From positions 1-62,314 of the forward strand of contig QHSL01000090.1 of assembly GCA_003220435.1 (NCBI GenBank): 62,314 nucleotides of DNA. Reading direction: 5' to 3'. The stretch is from Candidatus Rokuibacteriota bacterium. Its GTDB lineage: Bacteria > Methylomirabilota > Methylomirabilia > Rokubacteriales > CSP1-6. This document shows positions 2,462 through 60,377 of this stretch, piece by piece (the first letter of the stretch is position 1; each line of letters begins with the position of its first letter). The translations under genes and the position numbers were made by a program. The notes beneath the pieces are model-generated. The model was not told the DNA's origin. It saw only the letters and a program-made list of their open reading frames with translations, and did no database searches.

Positions 2462-2506
2462 GCGCCTCGGCCGGCGGGGCCCCAGCCCCGCGACGGCCTG
2501 CGGCGC
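2462..2506 (-). repeat. 45-bp palindromic repeat, copy 1
   Basis: Three-step palindrome with outer arms GCGCC/GGCGC, middle arms GGCCG/CGGCC and inner arms GCGGGGC/GCCCCGC around a TGGG loop. In sense orientation it sits about 20 bases upstream of the cyclase gene on the minus strand, immediately before that gene's Shine-Dalgarno sequence. The conserved 3' flank is altered here: ATC replaces the ATG seen in most copies. Confidence 0.9.
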
Positions 2507-4187: not shown

Positions 4188-5555
4188 TTACAGCGCGTGG
4201 AAGACGGCGCGGGCGAGGCGGGGCAGATCGGGGTCGCGCGCGCCCATGATGAGCACGGTGTCGCCGGGCCGCGCCTCGCGCACGATCCACTGGCGCGCGG
4301 CCGCGTGGTCGCCGGCGAAGCCGCAGCGCAGCGCGGCGGGCAGATCGTCCGCCAGCGCGCGGCCCGAGATGTCCTTGGCCACGGTGCCGCCCGCGTAGAA
4401 GATCTCGCCGTAGGCGAAGCGATCCTGAGACCGGAGCAGCGTCGGGATCAGCGCCTTGAGCTCGGAGCGCAGGAAGCGCGCCGGACCGAACCCATGCGGC
4501 TGAAAGAGCGCGACGACGCGCGCGGCGCCGGCCTGGGCGGTGGTGATGGCGGCGCGGAGCTTCTCGCCGTTGTGTGCATAGTCGTCGACCACCCGGATGC
4601 CGCTCGCGGTGGTCCCGACCACCTCGAAGCGACGCGCGACGCCGGGGAAGCGCGCCAGCAAGAGCTCCACGGTCGACGTGGCCACGCCGAGCTCGAACGC
4701 CACCAGCGCTGCGGCGGTCGCGTTCTCGAGGTTGTGGAGGCCGGGCTGCGGGACGTCGAGGGTCAGGTCGTGGCCGAGATAGCGGAGCACGCCGCTCGCG
4801 CGGTGCGGACCCACGCTCACGATCCTCAGCCGCGCATCGGCCCTTGGCGATGTGCCATAGGTCGCTGCCTTGAACCGGCGTCCGAGCGCCAGCGCCTCGG
4901 GGCACTCCTCGTTGATGACGAGCCGGCTGCAGTTCTTGGCGAACGCCGAGAACTGGTGGCGCAGCCCGTGCACCTCGTCGTGGTCGCGGCTGATGTTGTG
5001 CACGAGACCGATCTCGGGGCGATAGCCCACCAGCGTGCCGTCGGACTCGCACGCCTCGGCGACGGCGGGGCCCTCGGCGGGACCGGCGACGAAGAACCCG
5101 CCCGCGCCCTCGCCCACCAGCGCGGCGCCCCCCAGCACGGTGGCCGGCACGCTCGCCTCGCGCAGGAGCCAGCCCAGCAGGCCGACGATCGTGCTCTTGC
5201 CGCTTGTGCCGGCGATCGCGATCCCCGGCGTGGCGCAGTTGACGACCTCGGCGAGGAGCTGCGGGCGCGGCACGCAATCGATTCCCAGCGCGCGGGCCGC
5301 CCGCATCTCGGGGGTGTCGGCCTCGACGGCTGCGGAATACACGAAGCGATTGATCGCCGCCGTGACGGCCGAGCCGTCGTGCGGCCCGAGCTCGATGCCG
5401 AGCCTTCGAAGCGGCGCGGCGACTTCTTCCTTCTTGCCCTGGTCGAAAGCCCGATCGGAGCCCTGAACCGCGTGGCCCCGCGAGCGCATGAGACAGGCGA
5501 GCGGGCCCATACCGGCGCCCGCTATGCCTGAGAAGTGATACCGGAGAAGGGTCAA
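4188..5555 (-). CDS. Mur ligase family protein, divergent MurC/Mpl type
   Basis: 455-residue Mur ligase. The N-terminal Rossmann segment YHFSGIAGAGMGPLACLM corresponds to the UDP-MurNAc-binding domain of MurC and Mpl. The ATP loop GTSGKST (about 117-123) and the VHNISRDHDEVHG block belong to the central domain. The third-domain motif is VVDDYAHNGEKLRAAI. Canonical MurC carries GTHGKTTT and DDYGHHPTE, so both signatures deviate and the protein may be a divergent MurC, an Mpl-like recycling ligase or a ligase with another acceptor. The start is TTG at 5555, overlapping the TGA of the upstream membrane-protein gene, which indicates translational coupling. murB is 53 kb away in this window, not adjacent. 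Confidence 0.82.
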   Translation of the reverse strand: MTLLRYHFSGIAGAGMGPLACLMRSRGHAVQGSDRAFDQGKKEEVAAPLRRLGIELGPHDGSAVTAAINRFVYSAAVEADTPEMRAARALGIDCVPRPQLLAEVVNCATPGIAIAGTSGKSTIVGLLGWLLREASVPATVLGGAALVGEGAGGFFVAGPAEGPAVAEACESDGTLVGYRPEIGLVHNISRDHDEVHGLRHQFSAFAKNCSRLVINEECPEALALGRRFKAATYGTSPRADARLRIVSVGPHRASGVLRYLGHDLTLDVPQPGLHNLENATAAALVAFELGVATSTVELLLARFPGVARRFEVVGTTASGIRVVDDYAHNGEKLRAAITTAQAGAARVVALFQPHGFGPARFLRSELKALIPTLLRSQDRFAYGEIFYAGGTVAKDISGRALADDLPAALRCGFAGDHAAARQWIVREARPGDTVLIMGARDPDLPRLARAVFHAL

Positions 5556-6763
5556 ACGCTGACCTGCTTGCGTGGGTCGAAGTGCATCATCGTCTCGGCG
5601 TCGCGCGTCTCCGTCACCTCCCGCAGGCTCCGGAACGGGAGGTTGAAGACCGGCCGCGAGGCGGTCAGGATCATGGCGAAGTTCAGCGCCGCCCCCAGCA
5701 GGTGAATGACCGGCAGCGCCAGCAGCTCGAGCGCCTCATCGCTCTTCCCGTGGAGCCAGTCGATGTCGTGCTTGACGCCGTCCATCGCGAGCCGCCACCA
5801 CGCCGCCGACGGAAGGCCATTCGTGTGCACCACCTCGGGCTCCACCAGGGGCCGCCGCGCGATGAGGGCCAGCAGGGGCGGGGTGCCGTACTGACCGAAG
5901 AAGAACCACGTGAGGCCGCGGACGCCGAGCCAAGCGCCCACGGCGGCCACGATCACGATCACGTTGTCGTTGGCGATCCACGGCATGGTTACTTCTACCA
6001 AACCACGGTACAGGAATGTGACCTCGAAGAATATTGCGAAGGTCTCGATGAAGATGATCTGGGCCAGGAACCGGTTGTCCCGCTTGCGGACCGCATCGAC
6101 CAGCGCCTGCAGACAGGCGAAGCTCGCGAGCGTCAGCGCCAGCACCAGCAGGTAGAGGATCGGGGCCGTGAGCCACGAGACCTCGTCGGCCCCGGCCAGG
6201 TCGGCCACCAGCACGGCGACCCGCGGGTGCAGGGTGTAGGCGAACACGGCCGCCTCGAGCGCACACCAGAAGATCAGCGCCACGAAGGCGAGCCACGGCA
6301 CGCCCGGCCGGAAATAGGCCCGGACCAGCATGCTGGACATAGCGAACGGCGCGCCCACCACGTCCCGGACGAACCCGACCACGAGCCGCACGGCGAGCCG
6401 GGTGAGGCTCAGGATCCAACCCGTGAGTACGAGGGCGACGCGCAGTATCCCGACCCAATACATCCACACCATGATCGCGGCGTCCCACCACGCCAGGAGA
6501 AACAGCGAGGCGAAGCGCGCGCGGCCGGTGCGGAACGGCAGCGTGTAGACGCCCAACCCCGTGCACCAGATGGCGACGATGCCCAGCAGCACGGGGAACA
6601 GGAGAAACGCGTACTTCACCGCGGCCACCCAGCTTGGCTGAGGGTCGAGAAAAAAGGCCAGCAGCATCTGCTGCAAAGCAGGAACCCAGGCGATCGGGGT
6701 AGCGATCAGCTCCGCGAGCCCGCGCCACGCCTCGGGCAATCTGGCGATGATCCGATCAATCAT
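5552..6763 (-). CDS. polytopic membrane protein of unknown function
   Basis: 403-residue integral membrane protein with about seven hydrophobic segments, for example YAFLLFPVLLGIVAIW, WLAFVALIFWCALEAAVF, APILYLLVLALTLASF and VIVIVAAVGAWLGV. The cytoplasmic C-terminus ends in DPRKQVSV. I do not recognise the family. ATG 6763 has GGAGG nine bases upstream. Its stop overlaps the TTG start of the MurC-like ligase, so the two are probably made together, which hints at an envelope role. Upstream, repeat copy 2 is followed by ATG and an eight-codon open frame whose TGA overlaps this gene's ATG, a possible leader peptide. Confidence 0.78.
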   Translation of the reverse strand: MIDRIIARLPEAWRGLAELIATPIAWVPALQQMLLAFFLDPQPSWVAAVKYAFLLFPVLLGIVAIWCTGLGVYTLPFRTGRARFASLFLLAWWDAAIMVWMYWVGILRVALVLTGWILSLTRLAVRLVVGFVRDVVGAPFAMSSMLVRAYFRPGVPWLAFVALIFWCALEAAVFAYTLHPRVAVLVADLAGADEVSWLTAPILYLLVLALTLASFACLQALVDAVRKRDNRFLAQIIFIETFAIFFEVTFLYRGLVEVTMPWIANDNVIVIVAAVGAWLGVRGLTWFFFGQYGTPPLLALIARRPLVEPEVVHTNGLPSAAWWRLAMDGVKHDIDWLHGKSDEALELLALPVIHLLGAALNFAMILTASRPVFNLPFRSLREVTETRDAETMMHFDPRKQVSV

Positions 6764-6790: not shown

Positions 6791-6835
6791 GCGCCTCGGC
6801 CGGCGGGGCCCCAGCCCCGCGACGGCCTGCGGCGC
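6791..6835 (-). repeat. 45-bp palindromic repeat, copy 2
   Basis: Perfect copy of the three-step palindrome in sense orientation to the downstream membrane-protein gene on the minus strand. It is followed by the conserved GGCTATGAA flank. The flank ATG opens the short frame MNHHGGFR, which ends on a TGA overlapping the real start at 6763. Confidence 0.92.
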
Positions 6836-25793: not shown

Positions 25794-25838
25794 GCGCCGC
25801 AGGCCGTCGCGGGGCTGGGGTCCCGCCGGCCGAGGCGC
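25794..25838 (+). repeat. 45-bp palindromic repeat, copy 3
   Basis: One substitution in the inner arm (GTCCCGC for GCCCCGC), which still pairs in RNA as G-U. It is in sense orientation to the HAD gene. The conserved flank places GAGG seven bases before ATG 25843, so the element appears to provide both ribosome site and start codon. Confidence 0.9.
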
Positions 25839-25842
25839 GGCG

Positions 25843-26490
25843 ATGAAATATGATCGTCCGGGGATGAGCGCCATCGCGGCGGTGGTCTTCGACATCGGCG
25901 GGGTCGTGCAGGGCTCGCCCCTGCACGCGATCGCCCGCTATGAGCGCGACCACGGCATCGCCCCCAACGCGATCAACCGCGTGGTCGTCGCGGCCGGCGA
26001 GGGAGGCGCCTGGGCGCGGCTCGAGCGGGGCGAACTGACGGTCGAGGCGTTTTACACGCCGTTCGAGGCCGACTGCCAGGCACTCGGCATCGCCGTGGAC
26101 GGCGCCGCCCTCATGGCGCGCATCGCCGAGGCGGGCGTCGTGCGGCCGCGGATGCTCGAGGCGATCCAACGCATCCGCGCGCGGGGTCTCCGGGCGGCGG
26201 CCCTCACCAACAACTGGGTGGGCGCCGGACCGCCGAGAACCTCCCTCCGTGAGCAGTTCGACGTGTTCGTGGAGTCCGCAGTCGTCGGCCTCCGCAAACC
26301 CGATCCGCGGATCTACGAGCTCGTGTGCCGCGAGCTCGGCGTGGCCCCCGCCCGCGTCGCGTTCCTGGACGACATCGGGCGCAACCTCAAGCCGGCCCGC
26401 GCGCTCGGGATGGCGACGATCAAGGTCGACGATCCCGACGCGGCGCTTCGCGAGCTCGGCGCGCTGCTCGGGTTCGACCTGATCACCTGA
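25843..26490 (+). CDS. HAD-superfamily hydrolase
   Basis: 215-residue haloacid-dehalogenase-like hydrolase with helical cap (C1 type). Motif I is VVFDIGGVV with the nucleophile Asp. Motif II is ALTNNW, motif III the Lys in VGLRKPDPRIYE, and motif IV FLDDIGRNLKPARALG. Motif I lacks the second Asp of phosphatase members (DIG rather than DxD), as in the epoxide-hydrolase N-terminal/ACAD10-type and dehalogenase-like groups, so a phosphatase role is uncertain. ATG 25843 is preferred because GAGG from the repeat flank is seven bases upstream. ATG 25864 is the alternative and would remove the first seven residues. Confidence 0.86.
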   Translation: MKYDRPGMSAIAAVVFDIGGVVQGSPLHAIARYERDHGIAPNAINRVVVAAGEGGAWARLERGELTVEAFYTPFEADCQALGIAVDGAALMARIAEAGVVRPRMLEAIQRIRARGLRAAALTNNWVGAGPPRTSLREQFDVFVESAVVGLRKPDPRIYELVCRELGVAPARVAFLDDIGRNLKPARALGMATIKVDDPDAALRELGALLGFDLIT

Positions 26491-30052: not shown

Positions 30053-30123
30053 CGGCAATTGGCTTCCCGCCGCGGCCCTCAATGGCTCTTCCCCACGACG
30101 CCGACACCGTGTACACAAGGGGC

Positions 30124-32151
30124 ATGAAAGTCGAACACCCGAGCGTCTGCCCTCTCGATTGCCCTGACACCTGCAGCCTGACCGTTACCGTCGAGGACGA
30201 GCGGATCGTCTCGATCCGGGGCTCACGGGCGAACCCGTACACGGCGGGCGTTCTGTGCGCGAAGGTTCCGGAGGCGTATCCCGGCTTCGTGCACGGTGAG
30301 GGGCGGCTGAAGACGCCGCTCCGCCGCGTGGGCGCGAAAGGCGAGGGGCGCTTCGAGCGTATCTCGTGGGCGCAGGCGCTCGACATCGTCCACGAGCGCT
30401 TCACCGACGTCATGGCCGCGCACGGCCCGCAGGCGATCCTGCCGCTCAACTACGCCGGGCCGCACGGGATGCTGGCCGGCGGCTCGATGGATCTGCGCTT
30501 CTTCCACCGGCTCGGCGCGAGCCTGCTCGACCGCCGGCCGCTCTGCGGCGGCATCCGCACCGAGGCCTGGGTCGGGACATTCGGCCCGGTGCCCGGGATC
30601 AAGCCGGAGCAGGCCGAGCACGCGAGGCTGATCATCGCGTGGGGCAGCAACGTGACCTGGTCGAACCTCCACTTCGTGCCGATCATCAACCGCGCGCGGC
30701 GCGCCGGCGCCAAGCTGGTCATCGTCGACACGCGGCGCACGAAGATCGCCGAGCAGGCCGACCTCCACATCGCGCTGCGTCCCGGCACGGACGTGGTGCT
30801 GGCCTGGGCGATGGCCGCCGAGCTCGAGCGGCAGGGCGGGCTCGACCGGGCGTTCATCGAGCGCCACGTGCAGGGCTTCGACGAGTACATGGCGCTCGCG
30901 CGCCGCTTCACACCGGCCGACGCCGCGCGGATTTGCGGCGTCGACGAGCGCGACGTGCGGGAGCTCGCCGACTGGTACCGCACGCTCTCGCCGGCGGTGA
31001 TCACCGTCGGCAACGGGCTCGAGCGCAACCGCAACGGCGGCAGCGGTATCCGCGCGGTCTTCGCGCTGCCCGCCCTCGCCGGGAAGTTCGGCGTGGTCGG
31101 CGGCGGCCTCATCAACGGCGCCTCGTTCGCGTTCCCCAAGACGCCGCAGCGCCTGGCGCGCCCCGACTTCGTTCCCAAGGGAACGCGCACGCTCAACATC
31201 ATCGACGTCGGCCGGCATCTCACCGACGGGGCGCTGGCGCCGCCGCTCAAGGCGCTGTTCATCTACAACCACAACCCGCTGGTCGTGCATCCCGATCAGA
31301 ACCGGCTGCGCCGCGGCCTGGCGCGCGAGGACCTCTTCGTGGTCGGCGCCGACGTCGTGATGACCGACAGCCTCGCGTACGCGGACGTCGTGCTGCCGGC
31401 GTGCAGCCACTTCGAGCACCCGGATCTGTTCGCGGCGTACGGCACCCACTGGCTCCAGCGGGCCGCGCCGGTCATTCCGCCGCAGGGCGAGGCGCTGCCC
31501 AACACCGAGATCTTCCGCCGCCTCGCGGCGCGCTTCGGCTTCACCGACCCCGCATTCCGCGCGAGCGACGCCGAGCTGATGGACGACGCGCTCGATGGCG
31601 GCGACGTTCGGATGGGCGGCAAGCGGCCGAGCGCGATCCCGCTCGACCACGCGACGCCCATGATGGTGGGCGGCGAGGACGCGATGCTGTTTCAGAACGT
31701 CTTCCCGAAGACCGCGTCGGGCAAGGTCGAGCTGGCGTCGTCGTACCTCGAAGGTAAATACGGCGCGCGGCTGCCGCGCTGGAAGGAGCTGAGGTCCTCC
31801 TATCCCCTGACGCTGATCTCGCCCGCCTCCGACCAGCGCATCACCTCGACCTTCGGCGGGCTGCACGTGGGCGACGGGCCGCCGCCGCTCGAGATGCACC
31901 CCGCCGACGCCCGCGCGCGGGGCCTGCGCGACGGCGCGCGGGTGAGGGTGTGGAACGATCTCGGAGAGGTCCGGCTGCCGCTGCGCATCACCCAGGTGAT
32001 CCCGCGCGGCGTCGTCTGCTCGCTCAAGGGCGCGTGGATGGCGACGACCGACAACGGCCAGACCGTCTCCGCGCTGTGCCCGGCCGATCACGCCGACATC
32101 TCCGAGGGCGCGTGCTACAACGACGCGCGCGTCGAGGTGGCCGCGCTCTAG
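30124..32151 (+). CDS. molybdopterin oxidoreductase with [4Fe-4S] site
   Basis: 675-residue DMSO-reductase-family oxidoreductase. The N-terminal cluster ligands are in VCPLDCPDTCSLTV and GVLCAKV. Next come LCGGIRTEAWVG near the molybdenum site, IIAWGSNVTWSN, VIVDTRRTKIAEQADLHIAL and GNGLERNRNGGSGIRA. The C-terminal cap domain has MHPADARARGLRDG. ATG 30124 has AAGGGG upstream; the frame begins earlier at 30082 but those residues look non-coding. There is no twin-arginine signal, so it is cytoplasmic. No partner iron-sulfur or membrane subunit is adjacent. The substrate is unknown, and a formate-dehydrogenase-like role is not supported by any nearby gene. Confidence 0.92.
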   Translation: MKVEHPSVCPLDCPDTCSLTVTVEDERIVSIRGSRANPYTAGVLCAKVPEAYPGFVHGEGRLKTPLRRVGAKGEGRFERISWAQALDIVHERFTDVMAAHGPQAILPLNYAGPHGMLAGGSMDLRFFHRLGASLLDRRPLCGGIRTEAWVGTFGPVPGIKPEQAEHARLIIAWGSNVTWSNLHFVPIINRARRAGAKLVIVDTRRTKIAEQADLHIALRPGTDVVLAWAMAAELERQGGLDRAFIERHVQGFDEYMALARRFTPADAARICGVDERDVRELADWYRTLSPAVITVGNGLERNRNGGSGIRAVFALPALAGKFGVVGGGLINGASFAFPKTPQRLARPDFVPKGTRTLNIIDVGRHLTDGALAPPLKALFIYNHNPLVVHPDQNRLRRGLAREDLFVVGADVVMTDSLAYADVVLPACSHFEHPDLFAAYGTHWLQRAAPVIPPQGEALPNTEIFRRLAARFGFTDPAFRASDAELMDDALDGGDVRMGGKRPSAIPLDHATPMMVGGEDAMLFQNVFPKTASGKVELASSYLEGKYGARLPRWKELRSSYPLTLISPASDQRITSTFGGLHVGDGPPPLEMHPADARARGLRDGARVRVWNDLGEVRLPLRITQVIPRGVVCSLKGAWMATTDNGQTVSALCPADHADISEGACYNDARVEVAAL

Positions 32152-32157
32152 TAGTGC

Positions 32158-32202
32158 GCGCTGCAAGCCGTCGCGGGGCTGGGGCCCCGCCGGCCGAGGC
32201 GC
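32158..32202 (+). repeat. 45-bp palindromic repeat, copy 4
   Basis: Two substitutions in the 5' half (GCGCT, AAGCCG). In sense orientation, 20 bases upstream of the hypothetical gene at 32223. The conserved flank ATG at 32207 opens a different frame, and the real gene has its own AAGGAGAGG ribosome site. Confidence 0.88.
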
Positions 32203-32222: not shown

Positions 32223-32804
32223 ATGACGCCACCGGTCGATCCCAACGCCGTGCTGATGACCGGCGAGAACTCGTTCATCCGCCTGAGCCACGACGGCGGC
32301 AAGACCCAGTCGGACCGCTTCAGCCACTGGCGCGTGCTCTGGTGTCCAAGCGGCGCCGGCCACGTGCTGTTCGCCCAGAGCGAGCTCAGCTCCGGCCAGG
32401 CGCGCGTCTACAGCGACAATCCCGCGGTGGCGCGGTGGCTCCAGCGCACGATCGAGACGCTGCTGTTCCCCGCGTTCGCCGACACGAACCTGCCGGTGAT
32501 CGCCGCCGAGTTCGGCCGCGCCGGTGACCCACGCTCTACCGCGGTGGAAACGGTCGTCTCGGGCGCCGATCGGATCCGGCTCACCTGGTTCGATTGCATC
32601 GAGCCGTTCGTGCTCCACGCCCCGCCCGGCTTCAACCAGCGGCCGATCGGCGTGTTCAGCACGTTCTTCCCGGCGCGCTCGGCGCAGGTCGAGTGGAACG
32701 GCCGCTTCGCGACCGGCCAGCCGTGGGCGGAAGTGCGCGGCGACCGTCAGGCCTCCAGCGCCTGCCTGGCGTGGTCGGAGACGTGGGTGAAGCCGCGAGG
32801 GTAG
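32223..32804 (+). CDS. protein of unknown function
   Basis: 193-residue soluble protein starting at ATG 32223 behind a strong AGGAGAGG. It is rich in aromatic residues arranged as beta strands (FSHWRVLWCPSGAGHVLFAQ, RLTWFDCIEPFVLHAPPGF, GVFSTFFPARSAQVEWNG), suggesting a beta-sandwich or jelly-roll domain. The C-terminus ends SSACLAWSETWVKPRG. I do not recognise the family. It follows the molybdopterin oxidoreductase by 71 bases, with repeat copy 4 between them. Confidence 0.72.
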   Translation: MTPPVDPNAVLMTGENSFIRLSHDGGKTQSDRFSHWRVLWCPSGAGHVLFAQSELSSGQARVYSDNPAVARWLQRTIETLLFPAFADTNLPVIAAEFGRAGDPRSTAVETVVSGADRIRLTWFDCIEPFVLHAPPGFNQRPIGVFSTFFPARSAQVEWNGRFATGQPWAEVRGDRQASSACLAWSETWVKPRG

Positions 32805-36663: not shown

Positions 36664-38262
36664 CTACTCGTACCCTAACGCGCGGTCGCGCTCTGCAAGG
36701 GTGGAGTCACGCCGCGCCGCCAGGCCGTAGCCGCCGGCCCCCGGCGTCCTCACCAGCACCACGTCACCGCGCTTGAGCACATGCTGGCGGCGGTTGTCGA
36801 TCGAGACGCCGTTGATCTGCACGTCGCCCAGCCCGCCGTCGGCGCCGCCGGCAAAGCCCGGCGCCGGGAACTTCGTGCGCTCGGCCATGAACGAGGCGAT
36901 GATCGGCGCGTCGGACTCGCACTCGAACTCGATCTCTTGACCGAGTCCGCCGCGAAACCGACCCGCGCCGCCCGACCCCGGCCGTAGTCGCTTGTGACGG
37001 AAGAAGAACGGGCTGTTGCGCTCGGCCACCTCGACCGGCGTGGAGGAGATATTGCTCGGCCACGAGAGCACGCTCTCGCCGTCCTTGGACGGGGTGGCGC
37101 CCATGCCACCATTGAAGAAGAAAATGTTGGTGTAGGGCTTGCCGTCGCCGCGGAGCCCCGTCTGCTGCACCGCCCAGAGCGGTGAGCCGGCGCCGGCCAT
37201 GACGCGGTCCGGGATCACCTGGTGGAGCGCCCCGAACAGCAGCACCGGGACGTAGTGGCCGGTGACCGCACGGCTCACCACGGCCGCCGGGAAGCGCGGG
37301 TTCAGGATGCATCCCTCCGGTGCCTTGACCGTGAGCGGACGGTACATGCCCTCGTTGTTGGACAGGCCGGGCAGGAGCGCGCACTTGAGCGCGTACGCGG
37401 ACATCGCATAGGTGTAGGCGAGCACGCAGTTGATCGCGCGCGGCTGCTGGGGCGAGGTGCCGGTGAAGTCGGCGGTGATCTCGTCGCCGGCGATCGTGAG
37501 CGCCACCCGGTAGTCGAGCGGCTCGTCCACGCCGTCCGTTCGCATCGCGTAGCGGTACGTCCCGTCGGGCACCTGGCGAATGGCTGCGCGCATCGCGCCC
37601 TCGGCGCGCGCGAACAGCTCGTCGCCGAGCTCCACCAGCGAATCGAGGCGCCCGTCGTCCAGCAACGCGAGCAGCCGCTTCTCCATGAGCTCGTTGGCGC
37701 CGACCTGCGCCCAGATGTCGCCCACGGTCTGGTCGGGGGTGCGCACGTTGGCGCGGATCACCTCGATCAGCGTCGCGTCGGTGCGTCCCTCGCGCACGAG
37801 CTTCATCAGCGGAATGTGCAGCCCCTCCTCGAACACCTCGCGCGCCTCGATGGCCCGCAGCCGCCCGCCGATGTCCGGCATGTGCGAGGTCGTGGCCGAG
37901 AAGGCCACCAGGCGCCCGGCGCGGAAGATCGGCTTGAGCACGCTGACGTCGCTCATGTGGCCCGTGCCCATCCACGCGTCGTTGGTGATGAGGACGTCGC
38001 CGGGGCGCATCGCGTCGGCGCCCATCGCGCGCAGGAAGTGGCGCACGGTGGCGGGCAGGGTGCCGATGAACGAGGGGATGCTGCCGGTGTTCTGGGCCAG
38101 CGAATAGCCGCGCGCGTCGGTCAGCATACAGGCGAAGTCGTTCGCCTCGTTCGAGAGCGTCGAGAACGACGTACGGACGATCGCCTTCGCCGCCTCGTCC
38201 ACGATCGAGATCAGCCGCGTCCAGAACACCTCGAGCGAGACCGCGTCGAACCGCGTCGTCAT
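36664..38262 (-). CDS. hydantoinase B / oxoprolinase-type subunit
   Basis: 532-residue HyuB-family (hydantoinase B/5-oxoprolinase) protein of normal length. Characteristic blocks are FDAVSLEVFWTRLISIVDEA, TSFSTLSNEANDFACML, AQNTGSIPSFIGTLP, LITNDAWMGTGHMSDVSVLK, TSHMPDIGGR, ADFTGTSPQQPRAINC and LRPGSGGAGRFRGGLGQEIE. With HyuA it would catalyse ATP-dependent hydrolysis of a cyclic amide such as a hydantoin or oxoproline, or a related carboxylase-type reaction. Its ATG overlaps the stop of the GNAT gene (ATGA), which in turn overlaps hyuA, so all three are translated together. Confidence 0.93.
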   Translation of the reverse strand: MTTRFDAVSLEVFWTRLISIVDEAAKAIVRTSFSTLSNEANDFACMLTDARGYSLAQNTGSIPSFIGTLPATVRHFLRAMGADAMRPGDVLITNDAWMGTGHMSDVSVLKPIFRAGRLVAFSATTSHMPDIGGRLRAIEAREVFEEGLHIPLMKLVREGRTDATLIEVIRANVRTPDQTVGDIWAQVGANELMEKRLLALLDDGRLDSLVELGDELFARAEGAMRAAIRQVPDGTYRYAMRTDGVDEPLDYRVALTIAGDEITADFTGTSPQQPRAINCVLAYTYAMSAYALKCALLPGLSNNEGMYRPLTVKAPEGCILNPRFPAAVVSRAVTGHYVPVLLFGALHQVIPDRVMAGAGSPLWAVQQTGLRGDGKPYTNIFFFNGGMGATPSKDGESVLSWPSNISSTPVEVAERNSPFFFRHKRLRPGSGGAGRFRGGLGQEIEFECESDAPIIASFMAERTKFPAPGFAGGADGGLGDVQINGVSIDNRRQHVLKRGDVVLVRTPGAGGYGLAARRDSTLAERDRALGYE

Positions 38263-38801
38263 GCCGTCTCCTTCACGCGCGCGTAGCACCAGGAGTCGCG
38301 CGGCAAGGCGCTGACATTGGGATGAAACGACCAGCCCCGCAGCCGCCCCTCGCGTTCCATGCCGGCTTTCTCGAGCACACGCGCGGAGGCGCCGTTGTCG
38401 ACGTCGCATACGGCCCACACACGATGGATCTCGGGCTGTCCCAGCGCCCAGGCGATCACCGCCCGCACCGCCTCGGTCATGATGCCGCGCCCCCAGTGCT
38501 CGCGGCCCAGCGCGTAGCCCAGCTCGACGCGATGGCCCTGAGGTCGGGCGTCGATCACGCCGAGGAGACGATCGTCCTCGCGCCGTGTGATGAGCCACGT
38601 GTACGGCCCCTCGGCGGCCCAGTTCGCGACGCAGCGCCGGAGGAAGTCGCGCGACTGCGCGACGTGTTGGTGCGGCCGGAAGCTGAGGTAGCGTGTCACC
38701 TCGGGATCGCGCGCGTAGGTGGCGAAGACCTCCTCGGCGTCCTCCAGGTCGGGGGCCCGCAGGCGAAGGTGCTCAGTCTCGAGGATTGGCGGCGGCTTCA
38801 T
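38259..38801 (-). CDS. GNAT acetyltransferase (RimJ/RimL type) inside the hydantoinase operon
   Basis: 180-residue N-acetyltransferase. It shows TEHLRLRAPDLEDAEEVFA, the acetyl-CoA-binding GYALGREHWGRGIMTEAVRAV (a variant of the Q/R-x2-G-x-G/A motif) and the closing NGASARVLEKAGMEREGRLRG. RimJ/RimL-like enzymes acetylate protein N-termini or small amines. It lies between hyuA and hyuB with four-base ATGA overlaps on both sides, an unusual position that suggests a function linked to the amino product of the hydantoinase. That link is inference. Confidence 0.9.
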   Translation of the reverse strand: MKPPPILETEHLRLRAPDLEDAEEVFATYARDPEVTRYLSFRPHQHVAQSRDFLRRCVANWAAEGPYTWLITRREDDRLLGVIDARPQGHRVELGYALGREHWGRGIMTEAVRAVIAWALGQPEIHRVWAVCDVDNGASARVLEKAGMEREGRLRGWSFHPNVSALPRDSWCYARVKETA

Positions 38802-40957
38802 GGAGACAGCGTTACGACCAGGTTCCCGGTCGGCGCCACCCGGAACGTGGCGCCAGGATCGACCACGAGCGTCGAGCCCTCTTCCTCGATCACCGCCGGT
38901 CCGGCGAAGGTATCGCCGACGGCGAGGCGCACGCGGTCGAACACGGTCGTCTCGACGAACCCACCCGCGTTGGGGAAATAGGCCGGCCGCCGGCCCTTGA
39001 CCGCGGTCCCGGCCTCGCCGCGCGCGCGTGCCTGTAACACGACCTCGCTGCCGGCGACCGGCGCGCGCACGGCCACCCGGACGTTGATGAACTCCACTGG
39101 CACGTCGGGCGGCGTGAGGGAGAACTTCTCACGGTATGCGCTCTCGAACGCCGCCGTCAGCGCCCGGCGCGTCGCGTTTCCGTCGCGGCCGTCGTAGGGT
39201 CCGTCGGGCAGCGCCACCACGAGATCGAAGCCCTGGCCCAGGAACCGTCCGTCGGCGAGCCGTTGAAACCTCGCGGTCTCCAGCTTGAGACCGGTGTCGG
39301 CCATGACGGCGCGCGCTTCGTCTTCGAGCGCGCGAAACGCGGACTCGAGCGCCGCCGGGTCACCGCGATCGAGCCTGACCCCGACGGTGGCGACGCGGTC
39401 CACGCGCGCCGGCGCCACCAGCAGACCCAGCGCGGAGGCGACGCCGGCCGACGGCGGGCAGATCACCTCGCGCACGCCGAGCTTTCGGGCGACGTGGCAG
39501 GCGTGGACGGGCCCGGCGCCGCCGGTGCACAGCAGCGCCGCGTCGCGCGGGTCGCGGCCGCGCTCGGCGACGTGCACCCGGGCGGCGCTGGCCATGGACT
39601 CGTTGACGACGTCGTGGATGCCCCACGCCACGTCGATGAGCGGCAGCTTGACCTTGTCCGCGAGCCGGGCTATCGCGGCTTTCGCCGCCGCGACGTCGAT
39701 CGCGATGGTGCCGCCCGCGAAGTACTCCGGGTTCAAGTAGCCGAGCAGCAAATCGGCGTCGGTGACGGTCGGCTCCGAGCCGCCGAGGCCGTAGCACGCC
39801 GGGCCCGGCAGCGAGCCGGCGCTGCGCGGGCCGACTTTCAGGAGCCCGATCTCGTCGAGCTGCGCGATGGACCCGCCGCCGGCGCCGATCTCGATCAGCT
39901 CAATGGTCGAGATGCGCATGGGCAGGCCGCTGCCCTCGATGAACCGCTTCTGGCGAGCGGCCTCGAAGCTGTAGGCCGTGAGCGGCTCGCCGCCGACGAC
40001 CAACGAGAGCTTGGCGGTGGTGCCGCCCATGTCGAAGGCGAGCAGCTCGCCGCCGCGGTCCTCGATTTCTAGGCGCGCCTCGGCCGGCGCGGCCCCAGCC
40101 CCGCGACGGCCTGCGGCGCGCACATCGCGCCCGAAGAACGCGGCGGCGATGGCACACGCCGCGGGCCCCGACTCGAGCATTTGCACGGGCGTCCGCTGCG
40201 CCTCGGCCACGTGGGTCAGGCCGCCGCTCGAGAGCATCAGCAGCAGCGGCGCCGGGATCCGCCGCTCGGCGAGCTGGCGCGCCATGCGCCCGAGATATTG
40301 ATGCGCCAGCGGCTTGATGTAGGCGTTCGCCACCGTGGTCGACGCGCGCTCGAACTCGCGGATCTCCGGAGCCACCTCGTGCGAGGCGCTCGTGTAGAGC
40401 TCCGGGTAGCGCTCGGTGATCAGGCGCAGGGCCTCGCTCTCATGGCGCGGATTCGCGTAGGCGTGCAGGAACACCACGGCGACCGAGCTCACGCCGCTCG
40501 CCACGAGCCGCTCGACGCAGTCGAGGAGCTCGGCGCGATCGAGAGCCTGGCGCACGCTCCCGTCGGCCTTCACGCGCTCGTCGACCTCGAGCCGCAGATT
40601 GCGCGGCACCAGGGGCTCGGGCTTGGCGATGTTGAGATCGTAGAGCTCGAACTTCCGCTCGCGGCCGATCTCGAGTGTGTCGGCGAACCCGGCGGTCGTG
40701 ACGAGGCCGGTGACGGCGCCCTTGCGCTCGATCAGCGCGTTGGTGAACAGCGTGGTCGCGTGCACGACGCGGGTGAAGTGCCGCGGCTCGAGCCGCGCCT
40801 CGCCCAGCACCGCCACGGTGCCCTCGACCACCGCGCGCACCGGATCGTCGTGGGTCGTGAGCACCTTGCGGCTCCACTGGCGTCCGGTGTCGTGGTCGTA
40901 GACCACGATGTCGGTGAAGGTGCCGCCGATGTCGATGCCGAGCGCGTAGCTGGGCAC
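38798..40957 (-). CDS. hydantoinase A / oxoprolinase-type subunit carrying a translated palindromic repeat
   Basis: 719-residue HyuA-family protein. The ASKHA ATPase blocks are visible: ALGIDIGGTFTDIVVYDHD at the N-terminus, HATTLFTNALIERKGA, LLMLSSGGLTHVAEAQ, LLAFDMGGTTAKLSLVVGG and GAGGGSIAQLDEIG. The C-terminal part has GPAVIEEEGSTLVVDPG. At about residues 279-296, between FFGRD and the LLAFDMGG strand, lies an Ala/Gly/Arg insert ([17 protein letters not shown]) encoded by repeat copy 5, which keeps the reading frame. I chose GTG 40957, which begins VPSYALGIDIGG. The upstream extension to 41056 overlaps another gene. Confidence 0.92.
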   Translation of the reverse strand: MPSYALGIDIGGTFTDIVVYDHDTGRQWSRKVLTTHDDPVRAVVEGTVAVLGEARLEPRHFTRVVHATTLFTNALIERKGAVTGLVTTAGFADTLEIGRERKFELYDLNIAKPEPLVPRNLRLEVDERVKADGSVRQALDRAELLDCVERLVASGVSSVAVVFLHAYANPRHESEALRLITERYPELYTSASHEVAPEIREFERASTTVANAYIKPLAHQYLGRMARQLAERRIPAPLLLMLSSGGLTHVAEAQRTPVQMLESGPAACAIAAAFFGRDVRAAGRRGAGAAPAEARLEIEDRGGELLAFDMGGTTAKLSLVVGGEPLTAYSFEAARQKRFIEGSGLPMRISTIELIEIGAGGGSIAQLDEIGLLKVGPRSAGSLPGPACYGLGGSEPTVTDADLLLGYLNPEYFAGGTIAIDVAAAKAAIARLADKVKLPLIDVAWGIHDVVNESMASAARVHVAERGRDPRDAALLCTGGAGPVHACHVARKLGVREVICPPSAGVASALGLLVAPARVDRVATVGVRLDRGDPAALESAFRALEDEARAVMADTGLKLETARFQRLADGRFLGQGFDLVVALPDGPYDGRDGNATRRALTAAFESAYREKFSLTPPDVPVEFINVRVAVRAPVAGSEVVLQARARGEAGTAVKGRRPAYFPNAGGFVETTVFDRVRLAVGDTFAGPAVIEEEGSTLVVDPGATFRVAPTGNLVVTLSP
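40075..40119 (-). repeat. 45-bp palindromic repeat, copy 5, inside hyuA
   Basis: One substitution in the inner arm (GCCGCGC for GCCCCGC). It lies within the hyuA coding sequence in the same orientation as the gene. The 45-base core equals 15 codons and reads without a stop, adding an Ala/Gly/Arg-rich peptide. Its 3' flank is the usual one, but the ATG is changed to TAG out of frame. Confidence 0.9.
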
Positions 40958-57001: not shown

Positions 57002-57697
57002 CTAGCGGAGGAGGCGGGAGACGAGAGAATTGAGGCGGGCGACTTCGTGGTCGAGGAGGTCGAGGAACCAGAAGGCGGCGCTCTCGGGGTCGGAGCGGAC
57101 CACGAGGGCGACGACGTTCATCGGCGCGCCGCCGTCCGGCGGCGTGAAGCCGAGCTTCACCCCCTGCCCCGCGCGCATGCGCCGGCTCACGCGCGCCCGC
57201 ATCCCCGTCGACGAGAGCTCGGTGCAGGTGCCCTCGCGCACCTCTTGGCCGCCGTCGATCCGGACCGGCAGCTTGACGGCGGCGCGCGGCGCGGGCCGGC
57301 GCTCCACCACGCGCTCGTCGCCCGTCGGCCGCCGCGCGAGCGCGAAGGGACGGAGATAGGCGAGAACCTGGCCCAGCCGCTCGAGCGTGACCGGCTTGCG
57401 GATGAAGTCGAGGGCGCCCAGCTTGAGACACGCGCGCGCCTCGTTCTCGGTCGCGACGCCGGAGACGACGACGATTGGCACCTCCGACTCTCTGACGGTC
57501 GGCTGGCTCAGGAACTCGACGCCGCTCATGCCCGGCAGCCGGACGTCGAGCATGATCACGTCCGGCCGCGCTTCGGCGAGCGCCGACAGCGCGGCTTCAG
57601 CGCTGCCCACGACGAACGGCTGATAGCCGAGCTCGCCGATGAAGTCGCGGAAGATCTCGGAGAGCCGCTCGTCGTCCTCAACGATCAGGACCCGCAC
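57002..57697 (-). CDS. response regulator with REC and PilZ-like domains
   Basis: 231 residues. The receiver domain (1-120) has VRVLIVEDDERLSEIF, phosphoacceptor Asp in DVIMLDVRLPGMSGVEFL, a Ser/Thr switch in PIVVVSGVATENE and Lys in ALDFIRKPVTLERLG. A PilZ-like domain follows (about 138-230) with the c-di-GMP-type signature RRPAPRAAVKLPVRI and, further on, STGMRARVSRRMRAGQGVKL. It therefore may integrate phosphorylation with c-di-GMP binding. GTG 57697 has GGAGG upstream. The gene overlaps the end of murB by 13 bases. The matching kinase is not known. Confidence 0.87.
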   Translation of the reverse strand: MRVLIVEDDERLSEIFRDFIGELGYQPFVVGSAEAALSALAEARPDVIMLDVRLPGMSGVEFLSQPTVRESEVPIVVVSGVATENEARACLKLGALDFIRKPVTLERLGQVLAYLRPFALARRPTGDERVVERRPAPRAAVKLPVRIDGGQEVREGTCTELSSTGMRARVSRRMRAGQGVKLGFTPPDGGAPMNVVALVVRSDPESAAFWFLDLLDHEVARLNSLVSRLLR

Positions 57698-58764
57698 CGC
57701 GCTCCTCCGCCCTCGGCGCTCCAGAAGATCGGCTCGGGAGTGAGCCGCACCCCGAAGCGCTCGCGCACCGCCGCCTGCACCTGGCGCGAGAACGCGACGA
57801 CGTCGCTGGCGCGCGCTCCGTCGTGGGCGACGATCGCGAGCGTGTGGCGGGTGGAGAGACCGACCGGCCCCGCGCTCTGGCCCCGCGTGAACCCGGCGCG
57901 CTCGATCAGCCACGCCGCCGAGAGCTTGACGCGGCCGTCGGCCTGGGGCCAGCGCGGCATCGCGGCGTCGCCCGCACGCGCCTGCACGACGGCGGCCTCC
58001 GCGGCGGCGATGACGGGGTTGGTGAAGAACGAGCCGCAGCTCCGGCGGTTTTCGTCGCGGGGATCGAGCACCATCGACTTCGATTGGCGGATCGCGAGCA
58101 CGCTATCGCGCACGTCGGCGAGCGACGGCTTCGCGATGCCGCGCGCGGCCAGGTGCTTCTCCACGTCCGCGTAGCGAACGGCCGGCGTCCCGCCGGGCCG
58201 CAACCGGTAGCGCACCGAGAGCACCACGTAACGCCCGGGCTCGCCGCTCCGGAACCGGCTGTCGCGGTAGCCGAAGCCGCACTCGCGATTGCCGAACGTG
58301 ACGGTGCGGCCGGTCGTGGTGTCGAGGGCGCGCACGCTCGTGACCGTGTCGCTGACTTCCTGGCCGTAGGCGCCGACGTTCTGCATCGGCGTGGCGCCGA
58401 CCAGGCCCGGGATGCCGCTGAGGCACTCGAGCCCCGCCCAGCCGCGCTCGACGCTCCGACGCACCAGTTCGTCCCAGGGCTCGCCGGCCGCCGCGGTCAG
58501 CTCGATCGCGCCGTCGACCTCGCGCGTCTCCGTCCCGCGCAGCGCGATCTTCACCACGAGGCCGTCCACCCCTTCGTCGGCGACCAGAAGGTTCGAGCCG
58601 CCTCCGAGCACCCGGAAGACGAGGCTCCGGGCCCGGGCCCAGGCGGCGGCGGCGAGCACCGCCGCCTCGTCACGCGCCTCCGCGAAATAGCGGGCCGGCC
58701 CGCCCACGCCGAGCGTGCAGTGGTCGGCCAGGGGGACGTTCTCGCTGACCGTCATCTTGTTCAT
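57685..58764 (-). CDS. murB: UDP-N-acetylenolpyruvoylglucosamine reductase
   Basis: 359-residue MurB, the FAD enzyme that reduces UDP-GlcNAc-enolpyruvate to UDP-MurNAc in peptidoglycan synthesis. FAD-binding blocks are LADHCTLGVGGPARYFAEA and RVLGGGSNLLVADEG. Others are IPGLVGATPMQNVGAYGQEV, FGNRECGFGYRDSRFR and the catalytic Ser region RRSCGSFFTNPV. SAAWLIERAGF and the C-terminal LTPEPIFW also match. The YRDSRF loop marks it as E. coli-like type I. ATG 58764 lies just after repeat copy 6, whose flank offers GAGG seven bases upstream. It overlaps the REC-PilZ gene downstream. Confidence 0.95.
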   Translation of the reverse strand: MNKMTVSENVPLADHCTLGVGGPARYFAEARDEAAVLAAAAWARARSLVFRVLGGGSNLLVADEGVDGLVVKIALRGTETREVDGAIELTAAAGEPWDELVRRSVERGWAGLECLSGIPGLVGATPMQNVGAYGQEVSDTVTSVRALDTTTGRTVTFGNRECGFGYRDSRFRSGEPGRYVVLSVRYRLRPGGTPAVRYADVEKHLAARGIAKPSLADVRDSVLAIRQSKSMVLDPRDENRRSCGSFFTNPVIAAAEAAVVQARAGDAAMPRWPQADGRVKLSAAWLIERAGFTRGQSAGPVGLSTRHTLAIVAHDGARASDVVAFSRQVQAAVRERFGVRLTPEPIFWSAEGGGARCGS

Positions 58765-58768
58765 AGCC

Positions 58769-58813
58769 GCGCCTCGGCCGGCGGGGCCCCAGCCCCGCGA
58801 CGGCCTGCGGCGC
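58769..58813 (-). repeat. 45-bp palindromic repeat, copy 6
   Basis: Perfect copy in sense orientation. The conserved flank ATG is the murB start at 58764, and the repeat's own GAGG is at ribosome-site distance, so the whole translation initiation region appears to derive from the element. Confidence 0.93.
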
Positions 58814-59129: not shown

Positions 59130-60377
59130 TCAGCGCGCGGCCGCACGCCGACGCGCCGCGTACTCGAGGAGCCGGAAGAGCGCCAGCCCGAGAATCGTCG
59201 CGGCCATCACGACGGCCGCGAAGAGGACCGGGGCGGCCGCGCTGCCGGAGACGTCGCGCACGACGCCCGCGGCCGACTGGATCGCGGCCATCATGACGTA
59301 GAACACGGTGTAGTAGATGCCGAAGCTCGTCGCCAGCTGCGCGGGCGCCACGGCTCTCGGCAGGAGGGTCATGATACCGCCGGGCGGCGCGCCGATGGCG
59401 AGACCAACCAGGCAGAACGCCAGCAGCGAATGGTCGAGGACCGGCAGCAGCGTCATGACGCTCGCCGCGACCACGGAGCCGGCGACGATGACGAGGTTCG
59501 GCCGGCCGAGACGGTCGGTGAGCAGCCCCCCGAGAGGTACCGAGACCATCGTGAGCAAGATCGCCGCGCTCACGATGTAGCCGGCGTCGGCGAGCGAGAC
59601 CCCACGCGCCATCAGCAGGCCGGGGCCGAACGCGATGACGGCCACCAGGCTCGCATTGAAGCAGCCCCACGCGAAGCCGGCGCTCGTGCCGAGCGCGATC
59701 TCCCACGCGGAGGGGCGCGAGCGGTCCTCGACCGGCGCGGCGCGGCCATCCGGCCGACGCGGCGGATCGCGATACGCGAACGCGATCAGCACGAGCCCGA
59801 GCGCGGCCACGGCCGCCGTCGCCAGGATCGCCGTCCGCCACGAGGTACGAGTGGCCAGGACGCCGAGCGTGGCGGCGGCGAGGCCCAGGCCCACGGGCCA
59901 GCTCGTGAGCATGATGGCCATCGCGGTCGACATCTCGCCGCCCGCGAACCAGTCGGCGACCATCTTGGCGAGCAGGACGTTCATCAGCACAGCCCCGATG
60001 CCGGCGACCAATCGTCCGGCCAGGGCGGGGGCATAGCCGTGCGCGGCGGCTGTGATGACGCCGCCGGCGACCATGAGCGCGAGGCTCCCGCCCACCGTCC
60101 GGCGCTCGCCGAGACGCTGGCCGAGAATTCCCGCCGGCAGCGCCAGGAAGGCGCCGGGGAGCATGTAGAGACCGAGGAGCGAGCCGAGCTGCGTCCAGCT
60201 GAGCCCCAGGTCGGTCACGAGCAGCGGGCCCACCGAGGCGATCGCTTGGAACTGGTAGCCCATCGACGTGCGCGTCACGAACACGATCGCCAGCACAACC
60301 CAGCGGTTGGTGAGTGCTGCGGGCCGTCGCGGGGCTGGGGCCCCGCCGGCCGAGGCGCGGCTGTGAGAATCGGTCAT
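59130..60377 (-). CDS. MFS transporter with repeat-encoded N-terminus
   Basis: 415-residue major facilitator with about twelve hydrophobic segments. The first helix ([18 protein letters not shown]) is preceded by [19 protein letters not shown], encoded by repeat copy 7. The loop 2-3 motif is [17 protein letters not shown], and loop 8-9 has [14 protein letters not shown]. No start codon exists between the repeat and the first helix, and TATGAT lies eight bases before ATG 60377, so the repeat must be translated. The family includes nitrate/nitrite- and oxalate-type carriers; the substrate is unknown. It is divergent from the binding-protein gene downstream. Confidence 0.9.
60314..60358 (+). repeat. 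45-bp palindromic repeat, copy 7
   Basis: Two or three substitutions in the 5' half (GTGCT, GGGCCG). It lies about 105 bases upstream of the plus-strand binding-protein gene in sense orientation, and antisense within the first codons of the divergent MFS gene, which it helps encode. Confidence 0.9.

Follow-up and report, generated by a model that had tools for sequence, protein, structure and literature searches.

An in-frame palindromic repeat in hyuA belongs to a 5′-leader repeat family of Rokubacteria

Results

A palindromic repeat is inserted in frame in hyuA

The extra segment in the hyuA gene of this soil Rokubacteria genome is very probably one copy of a family of non-autonomous, imperfect palindromes of ~63 bp, which was inserted in frame and is tolerated by the enzyme. 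We analyzed the gene within a stretch of 62,314 nt (the window). hyuA encodes the hydantoinase/oxoprolinase subunit A of 719 aa including the insert (38798..40957, minus strand; Pfam Hydant_A_N, Hydantoinase_A and Hydant_A_C), and its likely start at 40957 was set by orthologue alignment and the gene model. As the first-pass annotation had stated, the gene is coupled to those for a GNAT acetyltransferase (38259..38801, minus strand) and HyuB (36664..38262, minus strand; Pfam Hydantoinase_B) by successive 4-nt ATGA overlaps at the hyuA/GNAT and GNAT/hyuB junctions.

The repeat core (copy 5, 40077-40118) was found inside the intact hyuA ORF where that annotation had placed it, with 1 mismatch to the consensus. 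We compared HyuA with orthologues from 99 related genomes. At the DNA level, the alignment delimits an inserted unit of 63 nt or 21 codons (40064..40126, minus strand), preceded by CGC and followed by GAG in the coding direction, which is missing from G007, G005, G002, G006 and ~15 further orthologues. Thus, the core is as originally described and in frame, but the unit is 63 nt rather than the proposed 45 nt or 15 codons. Scripted deletion of the 63 nt left an intact frame, SGPAACAIAAAFFGR-EDRGGELLAFDMGG, as in the orthologues. The ~20 close orthologues (70-90% identity), including the four named above from the same genus, read FFGR-(E/A)DSGG-LLAFDMGGTTAK without the insert; the 21-residue repeat insert occurs in this genome only, in agreement with the suggestion that relatives carry a short loop here. 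In addition, the hyuA copy departs from the consensus by substitutions of its own, one of which alters the in-element stop from CTA TRA to CTA GAA (G in place of T). As the unit length of 63 nt is divisible by three and the stop is lost by the T-to-G change, the insert would be read through as 21 extra residues.

Comparison of hyuA with the closest orthologue gives a dN/dS of 0.13 for the gene and 0.12 for the 140 codons around the insert, values that resemble those of pairs without the insert. These ratios point to purifying selection still acting on the gene, which is intact downstream of the insert as initially noted. In an AlphaFold2 model of HyuA, residues 278-302 between the helix 264-275 and the strand 305-310 showed pLDDT <50, while the model is of moderate quality (18 aligned sequences, mean pLDDT 76.7) and the segment 328-355 is also poorly modelled. 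Given this low pLDDT, the model predicts a disordered linker for the insert, a loop that joins the helix to the ATPase strand. In the sequence alignment, solved relatives, for example 7hk5, have only a short stretch at this site. The orthologue alignment and the model agree with the earlier assignment of the insert to a loop between the helix and the LLAFDMGGTTAK strand. We infer that the insert is translated and harmless.

Two further features of this region were observed. HyuA carries a G268C substitution in the nearly invariant GPAAG motif, ~10 residues before the insert (window 40064-40200). In another genus, the HyuA of G055 (L047, G055:C241) has a different 20-aa insert in the same loop, which was rejected as a repeat copy as its DNA is single-copy sequence. 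Since G055 carries this unrelated insert, the loop seems to tolerate insertions generally.

The repeat family is abundant in the genome and folds into a hairpin

The assembly (5.4 Mb, 147 contigs) contains 137 copies with ≤3 mismatches to a 29-nt core, while the reversed control pattern gave 0 matches in the whole assembly. Seven copies lie in the window at the same threshold; 100 dinucleotide shuffles of the window yielded 0 copies, and a search of the window against Rfam found no family match. Read in sense, the element has the sequence G[TCA][AG]GTGCGCGCCGCAGGCCGTCGCGGGGCTGGGGCCCCGCCGGCCGAGGCGCGGCTATRAA, an imperfect palindrome whose fold is a long hairpin with imperfect pairing. A compensatory change from C-G to A-T is present in the stem in other genera, with 28 double-compensatory sequences at one pair. 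A strand asymmetry of G-U pairs was set aside, being dominated by a few polymorphic positions. The repeat also occurs in tandem arrays of 2-4 units with a spacing of 60-65 nt. One leader (L117, G000:C142:41657-41897) has four head-to-tail units with an exact 60-nt period.

The number of copies per genome ranges from 14 to 137 within the genus. Elsewhere in the family the repeat occurs sporadically, and other members of the class almost entirely lack it. A named genome collection holds at least 98 stretches with the repeat, and all titles among the matches listed are Rokubacteria. All occurrences found so far point to a family confined to Rokubacteria and close relatives.

Copies are placed in 5′ leaders in the sense orientation

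We examined the genomic context of 107 of the 137 copies. Between unidirectional gene pairs, 50 copies are sense and 9 antisense in this genome (p about 5e-8), and 98 copies from other Rokubacteria gave 52 sense versus 10 antisense (p about 5e-8); these orientation counts rest on gene models made in this analysis. Leader copies typically lie 12-20 nt from the start of the downstream gene and immediately precede the Shine-Dalgarno (SD) sequence, with a median distance to the start of 16.5 nt in unidirectional pairs. Convergent gaps are depleted: they hold 5 of 85 intergenic copies, while 13 of the window's 58 gaps are convergent (p 0.005). The family is a 5′-leader element, mainly sense-oriented.

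The other copies in the window are placed as follows. Copies 1 (core 2464..2505, minus strand) and 2 (6793..6834, minus strand) lie in the 5′ leaders of the genes at 1512-2441 and 5552-6763, and copies 3 (25795..25836, plus strand) and 6 (58771..58812, minus strand) immediately 5′ of those at 25843-26490 and 57685-58764, all in sense. Copy 4 (32159..32200, plus strand), also in sense, is situated after the stop of 30082-32151 and before the start of 32223-32804, and copy 7 (60315..60356, plus strand) separates divergent genes, close to where 59130-60377 starts.

The downstream genes are functionally unrelated, encoding for example L20, TPP enzymes and a 6PGD-like dehydrogenase. One copy (L106, G000:C110:44620-44648) is located immediately 5′ of rplT for ribosomal protein L20; it is present in G003 and absent in G007 and G008, and AR40 (L246) has one at the orthologous junction. 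At another locus (L094, G000:C71), two opposed copies flank the region where a TPP-enzyme-like gene starts.

Copies within coding sequences are rare

Only two of ~198 copies examined, those in hyuA and glnE, are clearly mid-gene. As ~94% of the window is coding sequence, this represents a very strong depletion. The glnE copy (L093; Pfam GlnE), the only other clear mid-gene case among the 107 extracted, is read in the same reading frame as the HyuA insert. The sister species G003 carries the same insert in frame in a protein of 94% identity. In G005, G002, G006, G007 and G008, whole-segment matches to glnE are of empty-site length, and G006 and G007 were aligned in detail. A formyltransferase gene (L105) has an in-frame copy near its N-terminus, and several copies form C-terminal tails terminated by the element's own stop codon. 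Many apparent intragenic copies were rejected as mis-set starts or C-terminal tails.

Copies differ in presence among congeners

Congeners have empty or decayed sites for most of the 15 copies tested, and the 63-nt unit was recovered independently at the hyuA, glnE, L078 and L106 junctions. We infer from presence and absence alone that the repeat is mobile. About 8 sites look common to other species, a count made difficult by cross-matching of tandem arrays; as these sites are apparently shared, some copies are older. At the orthologous site L199 (G003:C117), only the two ends of the element are kept and the hairpin is deleted, a decay by palindrome loss. The junction of L234 (AR28) and L082 (this genome) is occupied in two species and empty in G003 and G007, by recurrent insertion or loss.

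No signal of target-site duplication was detected in 81 single copies. A CGA repeat is seen at hyuA, but this did not generalize to other copies and was rejected as a duplication. The Y1/RAYT transposase (PF01797) was found 0 times in this genome and all 8 congeners, while 23 of 59 relatives were positive, all outside the genus. Y1/RAYT, reverse transcriptase and IS110 were each rejected as movers, with 0 found in this genome.

Discussion

Our results are consistent with a model in which each copy would be inserted whole, as 63 nt in the clearest cases, and would leave the target site unduplicated. Copies would be retained nearly exclusively in 5′ leaders, oriented in sense and just 5′ of the SD sequence of the downstream gene. 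One copy would have landed in the hyuA coding sequence, where its translation may add 21 residues in a flexible loop, which the enzyme tolerates. More broadly, the family may represent undescribed mobile 63-nt palindromes of Rokubacteria that insert in sense ahead of the SD sequence, free of target-site duplication and RAYT, occasionally translated and frame-neutral in length because the unit is 63 nt; we give this wider proposal a little less than an even chance.

The repeat might instead be mainly a functional RNA hairpin of 5′ leaders that controls translation or mRNA stability at operon junctions, with the hyuA copy being a stray. The strong sense bias, the position just before the SD sequence and its repetition in other Rokubacteria argue for such a role, as do the depletion of convergent gaps and the compensatory stem change in other genera, although the latter could also keep a DNA hairpin for transposition. 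However, the downstream genes share no function and most sites are empty in the sister species. We regard this role as a serious alternative, though less likely than not. It is also conceivable, though rather unlikely, that insertion directly recognizes SD-like GGAG/GAGG sequences, so that copies in leaders and both of those in coding sequence would follow one target rule. The mid-gene copies adjoin AAGGAG in glnE and GAGGAC in hyuA, and 70% of the copies in leaders have a GGAG/GAGG-type motif on their 3′ side. In contrast, only 27% of copies that are not 5′ of a predicted start have the motif (background 11%), several of these being missed starts, and strict GGAG targeting is unsupported away from gene starts.

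So far, a single MAG contains the hyuA copy, which raises the possibility of an assembly or binning artefact. This is very improbable, given an exact, in-frame insertion with substitutions of its own versus the consensus and an analogous glnE insertion in two separate assemblies. Insertion of a family member into hyuA remains our preferred reading. As a translated palindrome, the hyuA insert would be a fresh example of a recognized phenomenon. It would also widen the host range of such palindromes to Rokubacteria, in a case where the states before and after insertion can be cleanly compared. The less expected part is the family itself, which is gene-start-facing, sense-oriented and RAYT-less, the reverse of classical REPs in its placement at gene starts and on the sense strand. 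The reversed placement and the lack of RAYT make two questions testable, namely what moves RAYT-less REP-like elements and whether hairpins ahead of ribosome-binding sites affect expression.

Comparison with known repeat systems

In-frame intragenic GTAG and CGTC REPs were already reported in a survey across 8 phyla (PMC3733652), and the present family resembles them as high-copy small palindromes with occasional in-frame intragenic copies. Known REPs lie close to gene 3′ ends, often in convergent gaps (PMC3733652), whereas our copies are found at 5′ gene ends, in sense, with convergent gaps depleted. CGTC REPs are without a known dedicated transposase and are defined by an unpaired CGTC tag, a stem of 8-9 bp whose first pairs are A-T and a 4-5 nt loop (PMC3733652). 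The present repeat has a nearly invariant CGTC before its central hairpin and likewise no known transposase, but the CG of CGTC is paired and the stem is 7 bp starting with G-C, with a 4-nt loop, which places it outside this definition. In RAYT-associated GTAG REPs, the corresponding tag is GTAG; the 5′ end here is G[TCA][AG]G, of which GTAG is one form among several, and this genome has no Y1/RAYT. The family also differs from MITEs of DDE transposons by its lack of target-site duplication in the 81 single copies. Mycobacterial interspersed repetitive units (MIRU), reported by Supply in 1997, are short units at operon junctions in the direction of the genes, sometimes in tandem; they would differ from the present repeat in palindromicity and taxon.

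The first-pass annotation likened the hyuA insert to the translated palindromic elements of Rickettsia. RPEs (Ogata 2000, 2002) are short palindromes found in frame within unrelated housekeeping genes, and close to half of those first described in R. conorii were in ORFs (PMC10969869). RPEs are ~150 bp in contrast to the 63-bp unit here, ORF insertion is not frequent in the present family, ~1% of copies being mid-gene and most facing gene starts, and the host is a Rokubacteria genome. The likeness holds for an in-frame insert in a different host lineage, but it is qualified by the exceptional status of mid-gene copies and by in-frame palindromes being known well beyond Rickettsia (PMC3733652). 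In hyuA and glnE, as with RPEs, the repeat is inserted in frame in a conserved protein whose orthologues are without it, the frame is kept and a peptide is encoded. Judged by the description of RPEs, the hyuA insert appears to work like an RPE insertion, a likeness of mode.
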